Of a stretch of DNA of 41,679 bases, positions 7,964 through 21,243 are shown in pieces; position 1 is the stretch's first letter; each line of letters opens with the position of its first letter. Origin of the DNA: Bullifex porci (GTDB lineage: Bacteria > Spirochaetota > Spirochaetia > Sphaerochaetales > Sphaerochaetaceae); NCBI RefSeq assembly GCF_009695635.1, contig NZ_VUNN01000020.1:1-41679 (forward strand), given 5' to 3'. The position numbers and the translations under genes are program-made. The notes beneath the pieces were generated by a model. It did not search any database and was not told the DNA's origin. It worked only from the letters and a program-made list of their open reading frames with translations.

Positions 7964-8550
7964 GCATTTGATTAAAACAATCTCTAGTAATAAAATTTGG
8001 AATATAAATTATATAAAATAAATATAATAATAATTTGATTAACATAAAATATAATATAAAAATTAATATTAATTATTATATTTTTAATGAAATTATATAA
8101 AACATTAATAAAAAAATATAAATATATCTATAAATTATATATAATAATTATATAGATAAACTATATAAATAATATATTTAAATATTGAAATAATTTGTAA
8201 TAATTTAAATTATTAATTAGATTATTTAATAAAGATATCTTTTTTAAATACTATATTATAACTTTGTTATAATAAATATATTAAAACTAATACTAACTGA
8301 GATTATCATGGTAACTTTGCTCGGAAAACACATTTAGAAAATAAGCCATGTAATTTATTATATTGAGTATTCTCGCTCATCAGCCCTATTTGTATCAACT
8401 TTAGCATCATCCTATCTCATATAAACTCCACCTAGTTCTATTAATATAATCTCACCATTAGCACCATTAATCATCGCAATTAAACAGCATAAAAAATTAT
8501 AATATCATTACAAGCATTCTCCCCTTAGAATTTCATTTCAGGCTTTTGAA
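7964..8550. other. AT-rich gene-free stretch
   Basis: Positions 7964-8280 are extremely A/T-rich, with no open frame or clear hairpin. From about 8290 base composition rises and short gene-like patches appear, but all frames are broken. They may be the lost front part of the same decayed element that leaves an istB relic just after; I could not identify any product here. Confidence 0.5.
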
Positions 8551-8959
8551 ATTATGGCTGCTAATAGCATTTCTGGTTGCGGTAAGTCTTTTATCGCTTG
8601 TTTCATTGGTACAATGGCTTGCTCTCAAGAAAAAAAGATGGCTCTATTATTGCTTACCCGACCTTTGTACAGACTTTGATTGTCTAAAGTTAGCCCAACA
8701 GAGTAGGAGGTTTGTTTCAAAACTGGTTAAAATGGAACTTTTGATTCTTGATGAGTGGTTTGGAATTACACTCTCTGATAAACACATAAACCTCATCTTT
8801 TAAATTGTCTAAAAACGCACTGAAGTGCATTCAACAAAATCTATTATCAATATAAACCTCAAGTGGTATACACGCTTTGTTGAATCTAATCAATATGAAA
8901 GCATTTTTAATCGCATCTTCTCTGAACTCTGTATGATACACGTAGAGACATTAATATAA
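8551..8959 (+). pseudogene. Decayed IS21-family istB (helper ATPase) relic
   Basis: Three pieces in three frames line up with one IstB protein. 8551-8679 reads up to a stop and contains SGCGKSFIACFIGTMACSQ, a Walker A region. After a frameshift, about 8665-8803 reads KLVKMELLILDEWFGITLSD, a Walker B region with the IstB-typical LDEW. After another shift, 8822-8959 reads WYTRFVESNQYESIFNRI, matching the IstB C-terminus. The uninterrupted 85-aa frame at 8546-8803 is a chimera of out-of-frame and in-frame parts, not a real gene. The relic differs from the intact IstB at 12640, so it comes from another IS21-family element. Confidence 0.65.
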
Positions 8960-11017: not shown

Positions 11018-12640
11018 ATGCTTGATTACAAGGATATCATTATCAAACACTATGCACTTTCACTATCTGGAAGTGAAATTGCCCGACAATTGGGCGTAAG
11101 TAAATCTGGGGTTAATGACTTCTTAAGAGCATTTGACAAATGTGAATCTATTTCCTACCCCCTTCCGCCTGGTATCACAAATTATGGAATCGCAGAGCTT
11201 GTGTATGGTTCCGTACCTGGATCAGGAGGAAGAAATGAAAGTATAGAGTATCCAGACTATGAAGCAGATGCTAGACTCATGGCAACAAGAAAAAACATGA
11301 CTTTGGTTTTTCTTTGGAACAGATACTCTAAAAAATGTGCGGAAGAAGGAAAGCGCTTCTACCAATACCGTCAGTACTGTGAACTCTACAACAAATGGTG
11401 CGAAGAGAATTATGAGACTGCCCACTTTGATGCTGTAATAGCTCAGAAGATGGAGGTTGACTTTGCTGGTCAAACCTTCAACATGACAGATCCTCTTACT
11501 GGGGAAATCATGACTATCGTTGTCTTTGTGGCAATACTTCCGTATTCTCAGTATATTTATGCAGAAGGAATGCTCTCCACAAAAGAACCACAGTGGATTG
11601 AGGTCAATAATCATGCCCTCGATTACTTTGGTGGAGTTCCTGCTTTAGTTGTCTGTGATAATTGTAAACAGGCTGTCACTGTCAATCGGGACTGGATTGA
11701 ACCTGAGTTAAATAAGGATTATGCTGACTGGGCAGAGCACAATGGCACTGTTATTCTTCCAGCAAAGGTTCGTAAGCCGAAGTTCAAAAGCTCTGTAGAA
11801 AATGCAGTGGGCATTCTTGAGAAAGGGTTATTTCACAAACTTGAAGAGCATCAGTATTTTTCGTTGGAACAGTTTAATAGAGATCTCTGGAAGGAACTGG
11901 AGGCTCTGAATAAAGAGCCGTTTAAGAAGAAAGAATACAATAGATACTTCTATTGGGAAGAGGAAAAACTTGAATTGATGCCGCTTCCTTCCATGCATTA
12001 CGAGTACATGGAGAGAAAAACGGCAAAGGTATCAAGCGACTTCCACGTACGCTTTGACAATGCTTATTATAGCGTAGACAAAGCATATCTTCACAAGAAA
12101 GTATCTATCAAGGCTTCTTCAACTGTTGTTCGTATTTATTCTCTTACCGGAGAGTACCTTTGTGAATGGCCTAGAGCAACCCGTAAAGGACAGTGGTCAA
12201 CCAATCCTAATCACTTGCCTGACACATATAAAGGATTTAGCCAGTGGAATGGCCCTTACTTTATACAAAAAGCTCAGCTTGTCGGCAAGAATACTGAGTC
12301 TGTTATTCGCACAATCCTAAAATCTAGACCTTATGAGGTTCAGACTTATCGTATGTGCTTAGGCATACTAAACTTTACAAAAAATTATAGTAATAAAGCA
12401 CTTGAAGAGTGCTGTAAGCAGGCGATTGCACTTAACAAGCAGAAATACACTTTTATCAAGAATACGATATCTGTTATTGCTGATGATCTTGGAGTCGCTG
12501 GATATCGTCACTCCGTACCGTCAAAGAAAGAACTGGTACGAGGTGGATTTGTAATGCCTCCAGAAGCTTCCAGTATTGATACCCTTTTATCACGCAGCAA
12601 ATTTCTTGCTGATCAGATGCGAGAGGAGGTCGATAAATAA
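11018..12640 (+). CDS. istA: IS21-family transposase IstA
   Basis: This DDE transposase cuts and joins the IS ends together with IstB. It is 540 aa. The N-terminal helix-turn-helix (about 16-40, SGSEIARQLGVSKSGVNDFLR) binds the ends. The catalytic core has Asp148 (VDFAG), Asp214 (VCDN) and Glu261 (SSVENAVG), the DDE triad. The C-terminal part carries the beta-barrel domain usual in IstA. The ATG at 11018 has a strong Shine-Dalgarno (AAGGAGG) at 10 nt; the longer upstream frame in another phase is spurious. It joins istB by a TAATG stop-start overlap, so translation is coupled. All key residues are present, so it is probably functional. Confidence 0.94.
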   Translation: MLDYKDIIIKHYALSLSGSEIARQLGVSKSGVNDFLRAFDKCESISYPLPPGITNYGIAELVYGSVPGSGGRNESIEYPDYEADARLMATRKNMTLVFLWNRYSKKCAEEGKRFYQYRQYCELYNKWCEENYETAHFDAVIAQKMEVDFAGQTFNMTDPLTGEIMTIVVFVAILPYSQYIYAEGMLSTKEPQWIEVNNHALDYFGGVPALVVCDNCKQAVTVNRDWIEPELNKDYADWAEHNGTVILPAKVRKPKFKSSVENAVGILEKGLFHKLEEHQYFSLEQFNRDLWKELEALNKEPFKKKEYNRYFYWEEEKLELMPLPSMHYEYMERKTAKVSSDFHVRFDNAYYSVDKAYLHKKVSIKASSTVVRIYSLTGEYLCEWPRATRKGQWSTNPNHLPDTYKGFSQWNGPYFIQKAQLVGKNTESVIRTILKSRPYEVQTYRMCLGILNFTKNYSNKALEECCKQAIALNKQKYTFIKNTISVIADDLGVAGYRHSVPSKKELVRGGFVMPPEASSIDTLLSRSKFLADQMREEVDK

Positions 12641-13377
12641 TGCTTACAGGAACCTCACTAATTAACGAGCTCGTTGATGAACTAAATGAACTAAAGCTTT
12701 CAAAAATGGCTGCTACTTTGGATGATCTGTATCATAAGCCAGGGTTTCTTGAAATGGATCGACTTACTCTTATTGCTGAGTTGATTGGGCCACAGTTTCA
12801 TGAAAAGATCAGTACGACACTTAAGAACCGACTGACAGCAGCACATCTTAAAGGTTCTCCAGAGGAACTATCAGACTGTGTTGATTCTGATAAACGTGAG
12901 TATTTGCCCTCAGGTATAACAGAAGTACTTTCTTCTCTTGATTTCATTGAAAGAGGTTACAATCTATGCATCCTTGGTGAATCAGATGCGGGGAAGTCAT
13001 ATCTTGCAAAAGCAATTGGCATTAAAGCCTGTAATCGGTATAACGTTGGTTACTTCCATAGTGAAGAGTTTTTGGAAAGCATGGTAGCTCTTAAAGAGCA
13101 GGATTACGAGAGATATGCTCGAAAGATGAAGAAGTATCTCAAATGGGAACTGATTATTCTTGACGATTTCCTGCTCCACACAATCATGGATGAGCGGGAG
13201 ATTAAAATCCTTTTTGAGCTATTAGAAAAACGTAACGAACAGAGGAAAAGCACTATTGTTTGTTCTCAGCGGGATCCGGATAACTGGAAGGCTATGATAC
13301 TCAACGATGAGGTATCAGCAAACTCCATTATGAAGAGAGCTACAAAACACTACACAATCAAGATCAATACCCGATAG
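12640..13377 (+). CDS. istB: IS21-family helper ATPase IstB
   Basis: This AAA+ ATPase related to DnaA/DnaC assembles on target DNA and activates IstA. It is 245 aa, the usual length. Walker A is GESDAGKS (113-120), somewhat unusual in its DA where GTG or GCG is common; Walker B is LIILDD (171-176). The sensor region STIVCSQRDPDNW and the C-terminal SIMKRATKHY match the family. The start codon shares one base with the istA stop. It looks intact, in contrast to the istB relic 3.7 kb upstream. Confidence 0.93.
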   Translation: MLTGTSLINELVDELNELKLSKMAATLDDLYHKPGFLEMDRLTLIAELIGPQFHEKISTTLKNRLTAAHLKGSPEELSDCVDSDKREYLPSGITEVLSSLDFIERGYNLCILGESDAGKSYLAKAIGIKACNRYNVGYFHSEEFLESMVALKEQDYERYARKMKKYLKWELIILDDFLLHTIMDEREIKILFELLEKRNEQRKSTIVCSQRDPDNWKAMILNDEVSANSIMKRATKHYTIKINTR

Positions 13378-14971: not shown

Positions 14972-15433
14972 ATGAAAGCTTTATATAAGTATATTACAGA
15001 AGGCTATTCTGGCGCAGGAATTATAATTACTTATAAAGATGAGGTACTTTTTCAATTAAGAAAGCATCCTCTTTCTTGGGCTTTTATTGGGGGTGGCTAT
15101 GATAAAGCTAAAGATAATAGCTTTTTAGATACTGCTATTAGAGAGCTCTATGAAGAAAGCGGTATTAAAATAAATAAAGAAGAAATTGATAAAAATCCAA
15201 TTCATAGCCTTGGTTTTGGAAAATATAAATGGATTCTTTTTCATATAAGCTTAACAAATCGTCCTACTATTAATGGTGATAAGGAGTACTCCGACGAGTA
15301 TATAAAATATAAATGGGTAAAGATAAATAATTATCGCCAAGAGCTAAATAATAGAGAAAAGAAGCACTATCCACTGTACTTCTTTGTCTCATATCAAATG
15401 AAAGAATTAAAAAGAAGAATTACTTTTTCCTAA
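14972..15433 (+). CDS. Nudix hydrolase
   Basis: This 153-aa protein of the Nudix fold probably hydrolyses a nucleoside diphosphate derivative; the substrate is unknown. The Nudix box is recognisable as GGGYDKAKDN...RELYEESGI (about 40-65), with Arg57, Glu58, Glu61 and Glu62 in place. The first box glutamate is replaced: the aligned residue is Asn49, or Asp48 if one residue is inserted. The catalytic metal ligands REXXEE are kept. No Shine-Dalgarno is seen before the ATG; TAAAAT lies 13 nt upstream. The 3' end overlaps the convergent uvrD gene by 14 nt. Confidence 0.82.
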   Translation: MKALYKYITEGYSGAGIIITYKDEVLFQLRKHPLSWAFIGGGYDKAKDNSFLDTAIRELYEESGIKINKEEIDKNPIHSLGFGKYKWILFHISLTNRPTINGDKEYSDEYIKYKWVKINNYRQELNNREKKHYPLYFFVSYQMKELKRRITFS

Positions 15434-17420
15434 GCTTTTCAAGCATAGCACTTAATGCTGCAAGCTTATCTTCAGTTGAGGTTTCCTCCTCTCCTGCAAC
15501 CTTATTACTTATCAATTGATTAGGAATTTCCTCAATGAATCGGGATGGAAGACAGAGATGGTTTTCTCCCATTCTATCCTTTCTATTTTCACAATAGGTA
15601 ATAGTTAGCTCCTTTTTTGCTCTAGTAACTGCAACATAGAAAAGCCTTCTTTCTTCCTCTATATTTGCCGGATTTTCCTCTAATGCACGGCTAGAAGGGA
15701 TAATATTATCTTCTATTCCTGCTAAATATACAGTATTAAACTCTAGGCCCTTAGCTGCGTGCATAGTCATTAAATTTACTTTACCTTTCTCCACATCACT
15801 ATTTTCTTCACCTAAGATCATAACAAGATTTAGGTAATCACGAAGAGAGGTATCAGGATTAGATTTTTCATAACGACTTATTCTTTGTCTTAAGAATTCT
15901 AATGACTGCATTTTATAGTCAACACTTTTAGGACTATCAGGGTAGTCCTCATGTAGCTTTTCTCTATAGGAAATATCGTCAATAATTGTTGATAGCAAGC
16001 TAGCCTTTTGATTATTTTCAGCTAAATTTTGCCAACCAATTACCATTTGGACAAAGTTTTTTAAAGCCTCTTTTGTCTTTCCACTTACAGGAGCATCGGC
16101 AGCATAAGCAAAATCTGATAGTGCATCAAAAAGAGAGGTTTTCTTTTTATCTGCATGCTGACGAAGCTTTTCAATTGTAACTCTACCAATACCTCTTCTA
16201 GGAGTATTGATAATTCTCAAAAGTGAAACATCGTCATCAATATTTACTATAACCTTTAAATAGCATAGTAGATCACGAATTTCCTTTCTATCAAAGAAGC
16301 TTTGGCCACCAGAAACCTGAGTTGGGATAGAGTTTTCCATCAAGGCTGTTTCAAGCTTTGATAATAATCCATTTGTTCTTACTAGAACTGCAAAGTCAGA
16401 GTAGGCAAGACCCTCCTTTCTAGAGCGATCTTTTATATGCTGAGCTATGTAATATGCTTCCTCTTCCTCATCCTCGTTACTAGTTACATATATTTGACTT
16501 CCCTTAGAGTCCTCTGTCCAGAGCTTCTTTTCCTTTCGCTTTTCATTATGAGTAATTATCGTATTTGCAGCCTCAAGTATATTACCACTACAGCGATAAT
16601 TTCTTTCTAGCTTGAACTCCTTAAGAGTAGGGAAATCATGTTCAAAATTAACAATATTTTGATAGTTAGCGCCACGCCATGAATAAATCGATTGGTCATC
16701 ATCACCAACAACAGCAATATTTTGATATTTCTTTGCTATTAAAGTAATAAACTTATACTGAAGTAAAGAAGTATCCTGGAACTCATCAACTAGAATATAT
16801 TTATAGCGTTCCTGAACAATATTTAATACGTCAGGACGTTTTTCAAATATTTTAATTGGAAGTAAAATTAAATCATCAAAATCTACAACGTTATAGGCCT
16901 TTTGAGTTGCTATAAATTCATTGTAAATCTCTTCTAAGGCGCTATCCTTATTTTGTATTTCCTTATGTCTTTCACACTTTATATCTGAAAAAAGAGCTAA
17001 TAGAGAGCTTATATTATAATTTGAGAGGTCATAGCCAAGTGTTACGATAACATTTCTTAAAAGAGATGTATTATCGTTTGTATCATAAACTGTAAAGTTA
17101 TTTTTATAACCTAAGTACTGGATATATTGCTTTAATAAGCCAAGACCAAAGGAGTGGAAGGTCGTTGCAGTAATGTGTTTATAATTACCCTTAGTTAGCT
17201 CACTAATACGTTCCTTCATCTCCTTAGCTGCTTTATTTGTAAAAGTTAAAGCCAAGATTTCTCTATCCTGGATACCTTGCTCAAGCATATATGCAATTCT
17301 ATAGGTCAGCATCCTAGTTTTACCAGAACCTGCCCCTGCAATTATTAATGAAGGACCATTTATATTCGCTGCAGCTTTTGCCTGCTCACTATTAAGCTCT
17401 TTAACCAAATCTATTGACAT
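15420..17420 (-). CDS. uvrD: UvrD/PcrA/Rep-type superfamily 1 DNA helicase
   Basis: This 3'-5' DNA helicase acts in repair and replication restart. I start it at the ATG at 17420 (666 aa), because a TTGATA-17 bp-TAGCTT promoter overlaps the alternative TTG start at 17459. Motifs in order are the Q-motif region LNSEQAKAA, motif I GAGSGKT, Ia TFTNKAAKEM, II VDEFQDT, III GDDDQSIYSWRGA, IV LERNYRC, V MTMHAAKGLEF and VI EERRLFYVAVTRAK. It is somewhat shorter than E. coli UvrD and closer in length to Rep. It converges on the Nudix gene. Confidence 0.93.
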   Translation of the reverse strand: MSIDLVKELNSEQAKAAANINGPSLIIAGAGSGKTRMLTYRIAYMLEQGIQDREILALTFTNKAAKEMKERISELTKGNYKHITATTFHSFGLGLLKQYIQYLGYKNNFTVYDTNDNTSLLRNVIVTLGYDLSNYNISSLLALFSDIKCERHKEIQNKDSALEEIYNEFIATQKAYNVVDFDDLILLPIKIFEKRPDVLNIVQERYKYILVDEFQDTSLLQYKFITLIAKKYQNIAVVGDDDQSIYSWRGANYQNIVNFEHDFPTLKEFKLERNYRCSGNILEAANTIITHNEKRKEKKLWTEDSKGSQIYVTSNEDEEEEAYYIAQHIKDRSRKEGLAYSDFAVLVRTNGLLSKLETALMENSIPTQVSGGQSFFDRKEIRDLLCYLKVIVNIDDDVSLLRIINTPRRGIGRVTIEKLRQHADKKKTSLFDALSDFAYAADAPVSGKTKEALKNFVQMVIGWQNLAENNQKASLLSTIIDDISYREKLHEDYPDSPKSVDYKMQSLEFLRQRISRYEKSNPDTSLRDYLNLVMILGEENSDVEKGKVNLMTMHAAKGLEFNTVYLAGIEDNIIPSSRALEENPANIEEERRLFYVAVTRAKKELTITYCENRKDRMGENHLCLPSRFIEEIPNQLISNKVAGEEETSTEDKLAALSAMLEKLRKK

Positions 17421-17430
17421 ACAAGGATGA

Positions 17431-17459
17431 AAGCTATCAATTAATTTGTTTATTATCAA
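17431..17459 (-). promoter_or_regulatory. uvrD promoter
   Basis: On the minus strand: TTGATA (17454-17459), a 17-bp spacer and TAGCTT (17431-17436), ending 10 nt before the ATG. The same TAGCTT -10 appears before the hemolysin III gene. Confidence 0.45.
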
Positions 17460-17669
17460 GTAGTGCTTGTAGAGAGAAAAAGCTCTTAGCTTTATCTATT
17501 TTGTAGTTAAATAAAGGGTTATCTAAGTTAAGGTTTTTTATAAAATCTTTTAAAAATCCTTGAGCTTTTAAATGTCACTTTTTAAATTATTTATATAATT
17601 TAATAGATTTTCTTCATACAATACACAAAGTGTATCTAATCTTCATTTAATACTATTCATTCTTCAGCT
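17460..17669. other. Intergenic region between uvrD and the tolC remnant
   Basis: A/T-rich DNA between divergent transcription units. I see no gene and no stable hairpin; only the flanking promoters are recognisable. Confidence 0.6.
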
Positions 17670-17697
17670 TTGATTCATCAAAAAAGAAGCTTAATAC
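17670..17697 (+). promoter_or_regulatory. Possible promoter of the old efflux operon
   Basis: TTGATT (17670-17675), a 16-bp spacer and TAATAC (17692-17697) lie 32 nt before the tolC-like ATG, leaving room for its AGGAGG site. Confidence 0.4.
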
Positions 17698-17729
17698 GAA
17701 TAAAGTTCTTAAGCTAGGAGGGATTAAAG

Positions 17730-18155
17730 ATGAAAAAGATAATCATATTATTGTTTATCACTCTATCCTTAGGTTCTTTATTTGCTAAAGAGGTTACTAT
17801 TAATGATGCAATTGAAAGTACAAAGCTTAATAGTATTTCTCTTGCTATTGAAAAAGAACAATTAGAGCAAAGCCTTCGTTCTGCGTCGGTATTATCATCG
17901 TACTTGCCAAATATTTCCTTAACGGGTACAGCTACAACTACTGGATCTGCTATTACAGGAACCTTTACACCACTTAGTGCAAATGTAAATGCAGGTATAA
18001 GCTGGAGTATAGGAACATCTTTAATCGGGAAGAAAGAAAGTGCTGCTATACAAAGAACTCTTGCAGAGCTAACATATAGTAGTAGTGCTCAATCTGTTGA
18101 GTCAGCTGCAGTATCGTCCTATCTTTAACTTGCAAGAACATTAGTTAACAACCTT
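17730..18155 (+). pseudogene. 5' remnant of a TolC-family outer-membrane efflux gene
   Basis: An ATG with a strong Shine-Dalgarno (AGGAGG) opens a secretory signal peptide (MKKIIILLFITLSLGSLFA) and the start of a TolC-type protein (VTINDAIESTKLNSISLAIEKE, then LPNISLTG). After 132 codons a TAA at 18126-18128 interrupts the frame, but the same frame continues after it with LARTLVNN, the helix expected next in TolC proteins. So the stop is a nonsense mutation in a formerly open gene. About ten codons later homology jumps to an RND pump. A full TolC needs over 400 residues; this fragment cannot form a barrel. Confidence 0.8.
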
Positions 18156-18790
18156 ATCTGTAGATGAAACCTATTCTGTTGTAGTAAAGCTTCGTGATGA
18201 GGATGTGTCATCTCTTACAGATATTCTTGCATTAAGAATACCTGCAAACGGTAGTACTATTGCTCTTGAAGAGCTAGTTACAATCGAGGAGTATACAGCA
18301 CCAGCAAGAATAAGTAGAGAAAATAAGGAGAGAGTAAATCACGTAACAGCAAATGCTAAGGATGGTTATTCTGCTTCTTATGCACAAAATGAAGTTAATA
18401 GAATATTAGATTCCTATTTAATTCTTCCTGATGGAGTAAAGCTAGTGCAGGCTGGTGAGATGAATGATTTTGCAAGCTATATGCCATATATAATAACAGT
18501 AATAATACTAGCTCTATTCTTAGTATATGCTGTAATGGCAGGACAATTTGAGAGCTTAAAGAACCCATTTATTATCTTTGCAACTATACCTCTACTCTTA
18601 ATTGGTGTAATTTGGATTCACATATGGACAGGAAATGATTTTACTCTCTTTTCTATAGTTGGTATTGTTGCCCTAATTGGTGTAGTAGTAAACAATGGTA
18701 TTGTACTAGTTGATGCGATAAACAGATTATTAGACGAAAAGGATTATCCAGTCTTAGAGGCATGCTTAAGAGCTGCTAAGGGAAGATTAC
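18145..18790 (+). pseudogene. Internal fragment of an RND efflux pump gene
   Basis: From about 18145 to 18790 the frame encodes the second porter domain and transmembrane segments of an AcrB-type RND pump: VVVKLRDEDVSSLTDI, then LPDGVKLVQAGEMND, then GIVALIGVVVNNGIVLVDA, the conserved TM10-11 region. It lacks the whole first half and the C-terminal part. It runs straight on from the tolC remnant with no membrane-fusion gene between, so one deletion removed the tolC 3' part, any adaptor gene and the pump 5' half. The 3' side ends abruptly in the TnpB element at ...AAKGRL, where pumps normally continue RPIL. Confidence 0.85.
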
Positions 18791-18863
18791 AAATTAACCG
18801 CCGAGAAAACCCACGCGCCTTGACCGTGAGATGAAAGGCGGTAATGCGTAATGCCATAAAATG

Positions 18864-18872
18864 TGCTATAAT
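18864..18872 (+). promoter_or_regulatory. Extended -10 promoter of tnpB
   Basis: TGCTATAAT, an extended -10, ends 6 nt before the ATG at 18879. No -35 is needed for this class. The frame extension upstream to 18861 would overlap this promoter and is rejected. Confidence 0.55.
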
Positions 18873-18878
18873 GATGTC

Positions 18879-20012
18879 ATGCGAACACTGACAGTAAAAC
18901 TGTATGGCAGCGATGACTTCGGATACCTTAGTGATATGATAAATATCGCCGGAATCATATACAACACGGCACTGACAATCATACAGGACCACTATACCGA
19001 AACAGGGAAGCTTTTGGATAAATATGAACTCCAGAAACAGCTCCGTAACCTTCGTAACGTGGATGAAAACCGTCACTGGCGATATGTAGGAAGTCAGGCG
19101 GTACAGGAGATAACCGACAGGATATACAGGGCGTACCGGCTGTTTTTCACTAACAGGGAGAATGGAGTCAAATGTTCGCCACCCCGTCGTCGCAAGGTTA
19201 AAAAGTACAAAAGCGTCACCTACAAACAGGCGGGATACAGATTCCTTACTGGCGGACGTATCAGCATAAACGGACACATCTACAGATACTGGGACTCCTA
19301 TGACGGACTCCTGGAACGGATCAAAATCAAGACCATAACAGTAAAGCGCAACATACTCGGAGAGTTTTTCGTCTACGTCACCACAGACAGCCCCGTCACC
19401 ATGCGTGAAACCAGGGACGGACGCGGTGAGGTCGGCATGGACTTCGGACTCAAGATGTTTCTTACGCTGTCGGACGGCAGTGTGATCAGGTCCCCAGAGT
19501 TTTTCAGACAAGGAGTAAACGAAGTCCGAAAAGCGAATCGTGCCCTGAGCCGTAAGGTGATGGGGAGCAACGGATACGAGCGTGCACTGAAGGCACTGTA
19601 CCGCAGGCACCAGGACATCGCGAACAGACGCAGGGACTGGTTTTGGAAGCTAAGCCATGAACTCTGTTCAAGGTACGGCGTCATAGCCATAGAAGACCTT
19701 AATATCAAGGGTATGGCGAGGATGTGGGGACGCAAGGTCCACGACTATGCGTTTTCGGAGTTTGTGGAAATCCTGGAGTGGTGTGCCCGAAAGTACGGGA
19801 CCAGGGTCATCAGGATTGGACGGTACTACCCGTCGTCCCAAACCTGCTCTGCATGCGGACATGTGTGGCCGAGCACCAAAGACCTCAGTGTCCGTGAGTG
19901 GACCTGCCCGGAATGCGGGGTGTATCACGACAGGGACGTGAATGCCGCGGTGAACATACTAGCTGAGGCAAAGCGTATCATGAATCGAATGGAACAGGCG
20001 AAGGACGCCTAG
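18879..20012 (+). CDS. tnpB: TnpB RNA-guided nuclease
   Basis: TnpB proteins are RNA-guided DNA endonucleases, ancestors of Cas12, that use an RNA from the element's right end. It is 377 aa from the ATG at 18879. The RuvC-like catalytic residues are Asp188 (GMDFG), Glu272 (AIEDLNIKG) and Asp353 (DRDVNAA). The zinc ribbon has Cys323, Cys326, Cys343 and Cys346. The N-terminal part carries the wedge/REC region with basic clusters (PPRRRKVKKYKS). All active-site residues are present, so it is likely functional. Base composition is far from the host's, indicating recent transfer. A large open frame on the opposite strand is a shadow of its GC-rich codons. Confidence 0.93.
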   Translation: MRTLTVKLYGSDDFGYLSDMINIAGIIYNTALTIIQDHYTETGKLLDKYELQKQLRNLRNVDENRHWRYVGSQAVQEITDRIYRAYRLFFTNRENGVKCSPPRRRKVKKYKSVTYKQAGYRFLTGGRISINGHIYRYWDSYDGLLERIKIKTITVKRNILGEFFVYVTTDSPVTMRETRDGRGEVGMDFGLKMFLTLSDGSVIRSPEFFRQGVNEVRKANRALSRKVMGSNGYERALKALYRRHQDIANRRRDWFWKLSHELCSRYGVIAIEDLNIKGMARMWGRKVHDYAFSEFVEILEWCARKYGTRVIRIGRYYPSSQTCSACGHVWPSTKDLSVREWTCPECGVYHDRDVNAAVNILAEAKRIMNRMEQAKDA

Positions 20013-20130
20013 ATCATAAGGCGAGGCCGGACGGGTCTCGCGGGCCAGAGACAGTGTAAGACATCCTTCGGGACGCAACCGTCGTTACCATGGCCAGATT
20101 CCCATGGGCTTGCCCGTGGGAGTACGTCAA
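19960..20130 (+). ncRNA. Putative omega RNA (TnpB guide RNA scaffold)
   Basis: The 118 nt after the tnpB stop are structured and non-coding: a stem CGAGGCC (20022-20028) with GGTCTCG (20034-20040), a TCC-TTCG-GGA hairpin, and the terminal right-end hairpin at 20101-20120. In known TnpB systems the scaffold RNA overlaps the 3' end of tnpB and runs to the right end, and the guide is the flanking DNA. By that rule the guide would start at 20131. The 5' limit given is approximate. Confidence 0.5.
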
Positions 20131-20236
20131 TTAGAAACCAGCTAAGAGAATATGATTTAACTAATAAATAAAATGATAGGGGACTTACCTGTGACCTTCT
20201 AGTTGGACCAATAATCTAATTAGGAGGTTAATTTTT

Positions 20237-20598
20237 ATGAAAGTAAAGGAAGAGAAGATAAAAAGGCGCTTTTAAGTTATATTAATAGTGAAGAGGCCTT
20301 TAAGAACCTTGATTATAAAACTGCTAAGTTATTAGAAACAATAATGAAGGTAGATATTCCAAATGATGGAGGATATAACATGTGTAAGGCAATTGAAGAT
20401 ATAAAAAATGATGGTAAGCTTGAGGGCAAGCGTGAAGGCAAGCGTGAGGGTAAACGCGAAGGAAAACGTGAAGGAAAGTGTGAAACTCTATATGAGTTAA
20501 CCCGTGATGGAATAATTACAAAGGAAATAGCTGCTAATAAGCTTAATATTACTGCTGAAAAGTTTGAAAAGGATATGAAGGCTTACTTTGCAAAGTAA
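20237..20598 (+). pseudogene. Rpn-family (PD-(D/E)XK) nuclease remnant
   Basis: TAGGAGG and an ATG at 20237 start a frame that stops after 12 codons. In another frame, from about 20248 to 20598, the DNA reads REDKKALLSYINSEEAF, then YKTAKLLETIMKVDIP, then GGYNMCKAIEDIKNDGK, the C-terminal part typical of Rpn recombination-promoting nucleases. The whole catalytic N-terminal domain is missing. The most likely history is an internal deletion that joined the first codons out of frame to the C-terminal part. An 84-codon frame from the ATG at 20344 remains open. It encodes six imperfect GKREG-type repeats. Confidence 0.7.
20413..20484 (+). repeat. Six imperfect 12-bp tandem repeats (G-K-R-E)
   Basis: Six in-frame 12-nt units of the type GGC AAG CGT GAA encode a charged repeat (mostly Gly-Lys-Arg-Glu). 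Third-position differences between units show the array is not freshly expanded. Such charged linkers are common in Rpn C-termini. Confidence 0.85.
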
Positions 20599-20607
20599 TA
20601 GCTTTAG

Positions 20608-20667: not shown

Positions 20668-21243
20668 CTAAAAGAAGCTAGAAATAAATATCTCTAAGCC
20701 GATAGTTATTAAAATAATACCGCCAAATATATTGGCTTTTCTTCCGAGCTTTGAGCCCGCCTTTTTACCAATTATTAAGCCAAATGTACATATTATAAAG
20801 GTTACTATCGCGATAATATTACTTGCTGTTATAGCGTAAAACCAATTATATTCTGCAATCGTAAAGCCAACAGATAGAGCATCAATACTAGTCGCTATAC
20901 CTTGTATAATTAGCTTCTTGAAGCTAAGAATAGTACACGCTTCATGCTCATCCTCTTCCTCTTTTTCTAAGAACATTGAAATACCAATATATGATAACAA
21001 TGCTAAAGCAATATATGGGATTATCTTCTCTAGTGCTTTAAAATAATTAATAATAGTATGAACACATACCCATCCAATCATTGGCATTAAGGCTTGGAAG
21101 AATGCAAAGGTAAAAGCAATTAAAACAAGCTTTTTCTTTGTCATTTTGCACTCATGTAAGCCATTTGCTAATGAAACAGAGAATGCATCCATCGCAAGTC
21201 CAATACCTAGTGCAATGCTATTAACAAAAAACACACTATTCAT
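20668..21243 (-). CDS. mntP: Manganese efflux pump MntP
   Basis: This inner-membrane exporter protects against excess Mn(II). It is 191 aa with six hydrophobic segments arranged as two similar halves. Each half has the signature with an acidic residue in the membrane: GLAMDAFSVS (Asp19) and GIATSIDALSVG. A charged loop with EKEEEDEHEAC lies between the halves. The start codon shares one base with the stop of the upstream DUF362 gene (TAATG), so the genes are translationally coupled. No manganese riboswitch can be placed in front, since there is no leader. Confidence 0.9.
   Translation of the reverse strand: MNSVFFVNSIALGIGLAMDAFSVSLANGLHECKMTKKKLVLIAFTFAFFQALMPMIGWVCVHTIINYFKALEKIIPYIALALLSYIGISMFLEKEEEDEHEACTILSFKKLIIQGIATSIDALSVGFTIAEYNWFYAITASNIIAIVTFIICTFGLIIGKKAGSKLGRKANIFGGIILITIGLEIFISSFF

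Follow-up and report, generated by a model that had tools for sequence, protein, structure and literature searches.

The locus examined here raises the question of how the beginning of a tolC gene came to stand directly before a fragment of an RND pump, and of when the efflux operon to which both would have belonged was lost. The window, by which we mean the whole stretch of 41,679 nucleotides that was analysed, is contig C13 of the Bullifex porci draft genome (G000; 2.42 Mb in 67 contigs, 96.69% complete) and has a GC content of 35%. The remnants lie between a divergent gene for a UvrD-type helicase upstream (15420-17459, minus strand) and a convergent gene for an MntP-like manganese efflux protein downstream (20668-21243, minus strand); these two neighbours anchor the synteny with the related genomes G006 and G004. 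Elsewhere in the window, two tandem 5S rRNA genes stand at the contig start (8-121 and 196-309; Rfam RF00001), and two consecutive frames of 540 and 245 aa (11018-13377) presumably represent the IstA and IstB of an IS21-type element. A region of 3 kb that has few frames otherwise contains, at 8471-8803, what we take to be a degraded IstB-like sequence.

The plus-strand sequence from 17730 to 18125 encodes, in 132 codons, the signal peptide and N-terminal region of an outer membrane efflux protein. It matches the Pfam family OEP (PF02321) with an E-value of 4.2e-8, and it was aligned with the TolC N-termini of relatives (10 rows in one alignment, 9 rows in another). In these alignments the in-frame TAA at 18126-18128 falls in the N/Y/T column of a motif that reads YWNL, YYNL or YWTI in the relatives' TolC. 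A weak resemblance to tolC continues over the codons for LARTL (18129-18143), at the end of which the frame changes, and the resemblance to an RND pump begins with LTTLS at 18145. The following piece (18145-18790, plus strand) corresponds to pump residues ~747-962 of 1051; its part 18145-18789 matches positions 755-963 of the 1021 of ACR_tran (PF00873; E 9.1e-44) and is 62% identical to the best congener's pump. The closest named matches to this fragment come from an uncultured Spirochaetaceae bacterium (L029) and an uncultured Spirochaetales bacterium (L030). The first-pass annotation of this DNA, which had described a TolC N-terminus running through a nonsense codon into an RND piece, is thus borne out. 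It had expected the junction at 18145-18160; we place it at ~18141-18147, at or just upstream of that interval.

To measure what is missing at this junction, the tolC-adaptor-RND operons of eight relatives were used, including G013, in which the pump is split into two frames; the set did not include G014, with its operon on two contigs, or G011, whose tolC frame is short. From one break point to the other the eight operons have 4,059-4,139 bp, and the corresponding gap of ~4.1 kb reaches from tolC codon ~138 to pump codon ~747, thereby taking in the remainder of tolC, the gene for the adaptor and the 5' part of the pump. A single event is the simplest reading of this loss. As the nearest sisters yielded no intact copy, the exact junction base and any repeat at the junction cannot be read.

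The pump piece ends at an inserted element. Immediately after a TTAC at 18787-18790 (plus strand), which lies within the codons for the pump's RLRP motif and serves as the left target, an IS200/IS605-type element of 1340 bp runs from 18791 to 20130 (plus strand) and ends in TCAA. It carries tnpB only (18861-20012, plus strand; 383 aa), whose product matches PF01385 (E 1.6e-19) and PF07282 (E 6.7e-24). Besides this copy, the genome holds eight further full-length ones (nine in total) at ~94-96% identity, and the right end is ..GTCAA in 9/9. The left flank is TTAC in 12 of the 13 copies for which it was printed and TGAC in the remaining one, two short left-end pieces (C2:23277 and C8:40945) standing outside this count. 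Six further pieces of ~120-225 bp consist of the right end only and keep it exactly (C2:78334, C35:416, C7:59005, C10:46361, C16:8172 and C24:156). Hairpins predicted near both element ends did not reach significance, with z-scores of -1.28 and -1.31 and with 18 and 20 of 200 shuffles folding equally well.

For IS608 of H. pylori, the target TTAC and the right cleavage site TCAA have been described (PMC5934647). The window's element resembles IS608 and the IS200/IS605 group in its insertion 3' of TTAC, in its right end and in a TnpB of the OrfB_IS605/Cas12f1-like type. Unlike them it showed no tnpA (the gene of a Y1 HUH transposase) among its long plus-strand frames, of which tnpB is the sole one in 18791-20130. 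A second difference is that DNA downstream of the target is missing, both at the pump and at one permease gene (see below). The genome as a whole is not unusually rich in TnpB, with 13 PF07282 matches against 0-14 in 15 others.

That the pump simply ended at the element was ruled out by what lies beyond it. Directly to the right (20131-20171, plus strand), in the pump's frame, follow the last 13 codons of the same pump and its stop codon, which read (L)RNQLREYDLTNK and TAA (20169-20171); a congener's pump ends in TLENQLREYDMRKMDLIDDYL. The alignment score of this tail is 40, and none of 200 dinucleotide-preserving shuffles reached it (maximum 27). Measured on 10 of 10 relatives, 70 codons (210 bp) are absent between the pump piece and the tail, and the gap falls exactly at the element's right end. 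Two features of the first-pass annotation are adjusted by these data. The RND part, which it had taken for the second half of the pump, is indeed a pump piece, and consists of residues ~747-962 plus the last 13 codons after the element. Its loss of several kilobases is borne out, as what remained of tolC, the adaptor gene and the pump's first part are gone; the element with its 210-bp loss had been missed. Two other repeat families of the genome follow directly after the pump stop on the plus strand: a 68-bp repeat (20187-20254), which recurs at four more genomic places, and a degraded EGKREGK-repeat gene (~20253-20605), which recurs at eight or more.

An assembly artefact, which the first-pass annotation had set against a genuine fusion, could take the form of a chimeric tolC-RND join or of a misjoin across the repeated element, and a draft in many contigs with nine full-length copies of the element gives some reason to consider it. 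We regard it as very improbable. The stretch 17600-18782, which spans the tolC-RND junction, has no second match in the assembly, and neither the rest of tolC nor the first three quarters of the pump was found elsewhere in it by a search that admitted matches up to E 1. The sequences flanking the repeated element are parts of one gene, in one frame, which makes a misassembly there unlikely. Moreover, a separate assembly, that of G006, likewise has an eroded operon at this place.

The 210-bp loss can be compared with one further copy of the element. When 17 element pieces were compared with the loci taken from other genomes, both flanks were matched only for the copy at C1:222113-223458 (L046), which stands where a uracil/xanthine permease gene ends; for one right-end-only piece there was a match on 127 bp of one side. 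At the permease site G006 and G004 are free of the element (L106 and L109) and show a TTAC, then the end of the permease gene, then a second TTAC directly before the sequence that forms the right flank in B. porci. In B. porci the element follows the first TTAC and is itself followed by the DNA that comes after the second; 119 bp present in G006 have no counterpart. At the pump, the G006 tail shows TCAC, one base off TTAC, at the matching place. Both copies that can be compared with an element-free relative fit a loss from site to site (TTAC/TTAC and 119 bp at the permease, TTAC/TCAC and 210 bp at the pump). The DNA missing at the element in the pump was probably lost from one TTAC-like site to another, either as the element inserted or through slippage or recombination in its vicinity. 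An independent insertion that hit the end of an older deletion exactly by chance is possible and not likely; the pump and tolC remnants contain 7 TTAC and 9 GTAA sites.

One possible, though doubtful, explanation is that the element can insert while replacing the interval between two target-like sites, with its left end joined to one TTAC and its right end to the DNA beyond the other site; single-strand "peel and paste" would then give exact site-to-site deletions. The same picture would also be produced by slippage between TTAC repeats, by recombination of two neighbouring copies, or by a transposase that links two target sites. Two copies do not make a rule, and another full-length copy (L040), which lies within a frame that its flanks, once joined, leave uninterrupted, may have inserted cleanly and to that extent counts against deletion as a rule. 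A literature search established no paper as describing element-linked deletions of this kind; we make no claim that none is in print.

The first-pass annotation had proposed to locate the junction, and any short repeat used for the deletion, on an intact operon in a sister strain. No such operon stands at this locus in either relative that shares the synteny. In G006, the nearest relative seen (its UvrD protein is 92.6% identical over the alignment), the order uvrD, tolC remnant, mntP is the same as in B. porci. Its tolC has lost one base early, a frameshift that is absent from B. porci, and runs at contig position ~2590 into the last ~30 codons of the pump, a tail that is itself broken by a stop; the tail scores 47 against a maximum of 31 in 200 shuffles (0/200). 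The deletion between tolC and the RND tail is thus larger in G006 than in B. porci, has another junction and is without an element. In G004 no recognisable trace of the operon was seen between uvrD and mntP, which are separated by 190 bp between DNA matches and ~90 bp between protein matches. At the uvrD of six congeners (G001, G007-G010 and G012), queries with tolC and mntP gave no match, two of these stretches ending within the neighbouring gene.

A tolC-to-RND fusion at the same locus in both species could mean that the deletion seen in B. porci preceded the split from G006, which later lost more, and the missing stretch of G006 does cover the place of the B. porci junction, so that one deletion may be nested in the other. 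We consider such a shared ancestral inactivation rather improbable. In the tolC stretch common to the two genomes pN is 0.176 and pS 0.740, a ratio of 0.237 (bootstrap 0.151-0.362) that comes from 79 codons only, with synonymous sites near saturation; the differences are distributed as 19/10/44 over the three codon positions, most of them thus in third positions. Neutral drift since the split should have brought pN near pS. Among 36 pairs of nine relatives the tolC ratio ranges from 0.15 to 0.77, and for UvrD the comparison of B. porci with G006 gives pN 0.047 and pS 0.631. No lesion common to both remnants was found either: the G006 frameshift is its own, and the TAA of B. porci lies beyond the break in G006 and is not comparable. 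The tolC constraint points to selection having acted on the gene during most of the period after the two lineages parted, and makes independent losses the simplest account, as support and not as proof.

With a neutral divergence of 15%, the probability of finding a single stop in ~350 codons is 0.02, and with one of 10% it is 0.10, which argues against a long neutral decay. At positions invariant in relatives, the window has changed 3 of 12 in tolC (0-1 of 12-13 in eight of nine relatives, 6 of 18 in the other) and 6 of 78 in the pump (0-13 of 78-91 in the relatives), so that some damage may already have accumulated. Relative to the species divergence, then, the tolC constraint and the UvrD comparison agree with the earlier view of the loss as recent.

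The operon from which the remnants descend can be recognised in the genus. An orthologue of this pump is present in 9 of the 15 other congeneric genomes (52-62% identical over the fragment), adjoined by tolC and an adaptor gene in the order tolC (423-454 aa), adaptor gene (where complete, 310-332 aa) and pump (~1,050 aa); the operon of G014 lies on two contigs, and those of G011 and G013 include broken or short frames. The window's neighbours were not seen around these operons in the stretches fetched, for which the G002 contig is uninformative, as it holds little beyond the operon. Homology, order and strand all agree with descent from the tolC-RND operon of the congeners. The families are those of a tripartite RND efflux operon (TolC/OEP, membrane fusion protein and ACR_tran pump), with tolC followed by RND on one strand. 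Unlike a functional operon of this type, the window keeps only the 5' end of tolC, one pump segment and the pump tail, and the adaptor is gone; the outer membrane factor is reduced to 132 codons and a TAA. Other RND-like sequences in the genus appear damaged as well: a pump split into two frames in G013 (L092), a fragment with a stop at G001:C60:42647-43240, and a weak match with seven stops at G006:C159:10-561, which may be a SecD-like gene instead.

The rest of the B. porci assembly was searched with the proteins of a relative. The whole pump matched this remnant and, with 27% identity, a frame of 569 aa, which we take for SecD from its length; a search with the ACR_tran family added an 836-aa frame below the curated cut-off, and the sole long ACR_tran match is the remnant itself. 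TolC and adaptor, used as one query, led to the remnant, to a frame of 372 aa that is 25-28% identical and, at E 0.66, to a frame of 704 aa. No adaptor (membrane fusion protein) gene was found at the locus, the best match elsewhere being the 372-aa frame on contig C2, and no OEP match at E <= 0.001 was found in the assembly besides this remnant. Full-length RND pump and OEP matches are present in 15 of the 15 other congeneric genomes; among the 16, the B. porci assembly is the only one that yielded neither a full-length RND pump nor an intact TolC-family protein, although a gap in the draft could hide another pump or TolC.

It could be argued that the RND fragment is made and useful as a reduced protein, as it is open over 215 codons and so few of its invariant positions have changed. 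This can hardly be credited. The fragment is not in frame with tolC, a TAA lies upstream, and its first listed start codon is a GTG at 18205, inside the piece. It represents part of a pump only, and neither an adaptor nor a partner in the outer membrane was found for it; the element separates it from its tail, and G006 has lost the very same stretch.

Taken together, these results very probably describe a dead tripartite RND efflux operon (tolC, adaptor and pump) that decays in place between uvrD and mntP. It would still have been intact when B. porci and its sister species separated, each lineage would then have lost it by separate deletions, and no product of the locus is likely to work today. 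The 4.1-kb loss, the nonsense codon and the IS-split pump make this a pseudogene and a case of ordinary gene decay. Efflux operons are pseudogenised in other bacteria too, by deletion, nonsense codon and IS insertion as here; what sets this locus apart from them is that a sister species has lost the same operon, in the same place, through a different deletion. On the loss of RND and TolC in spirochaetes our literature search established no report, which is not to say that none has been printed.

The erosion of the same operon in G006 by a different cut offers a natural case of apparent parallel loss. Should deletions bounded by target-like sites prove general, they would be an added deletion-forming route for IS200/IS605 elements. 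For B. porci itself, the apparent lack of a full-length RND pump and of an intact TolC would predict an unusual sensitivity to toxic compounds.
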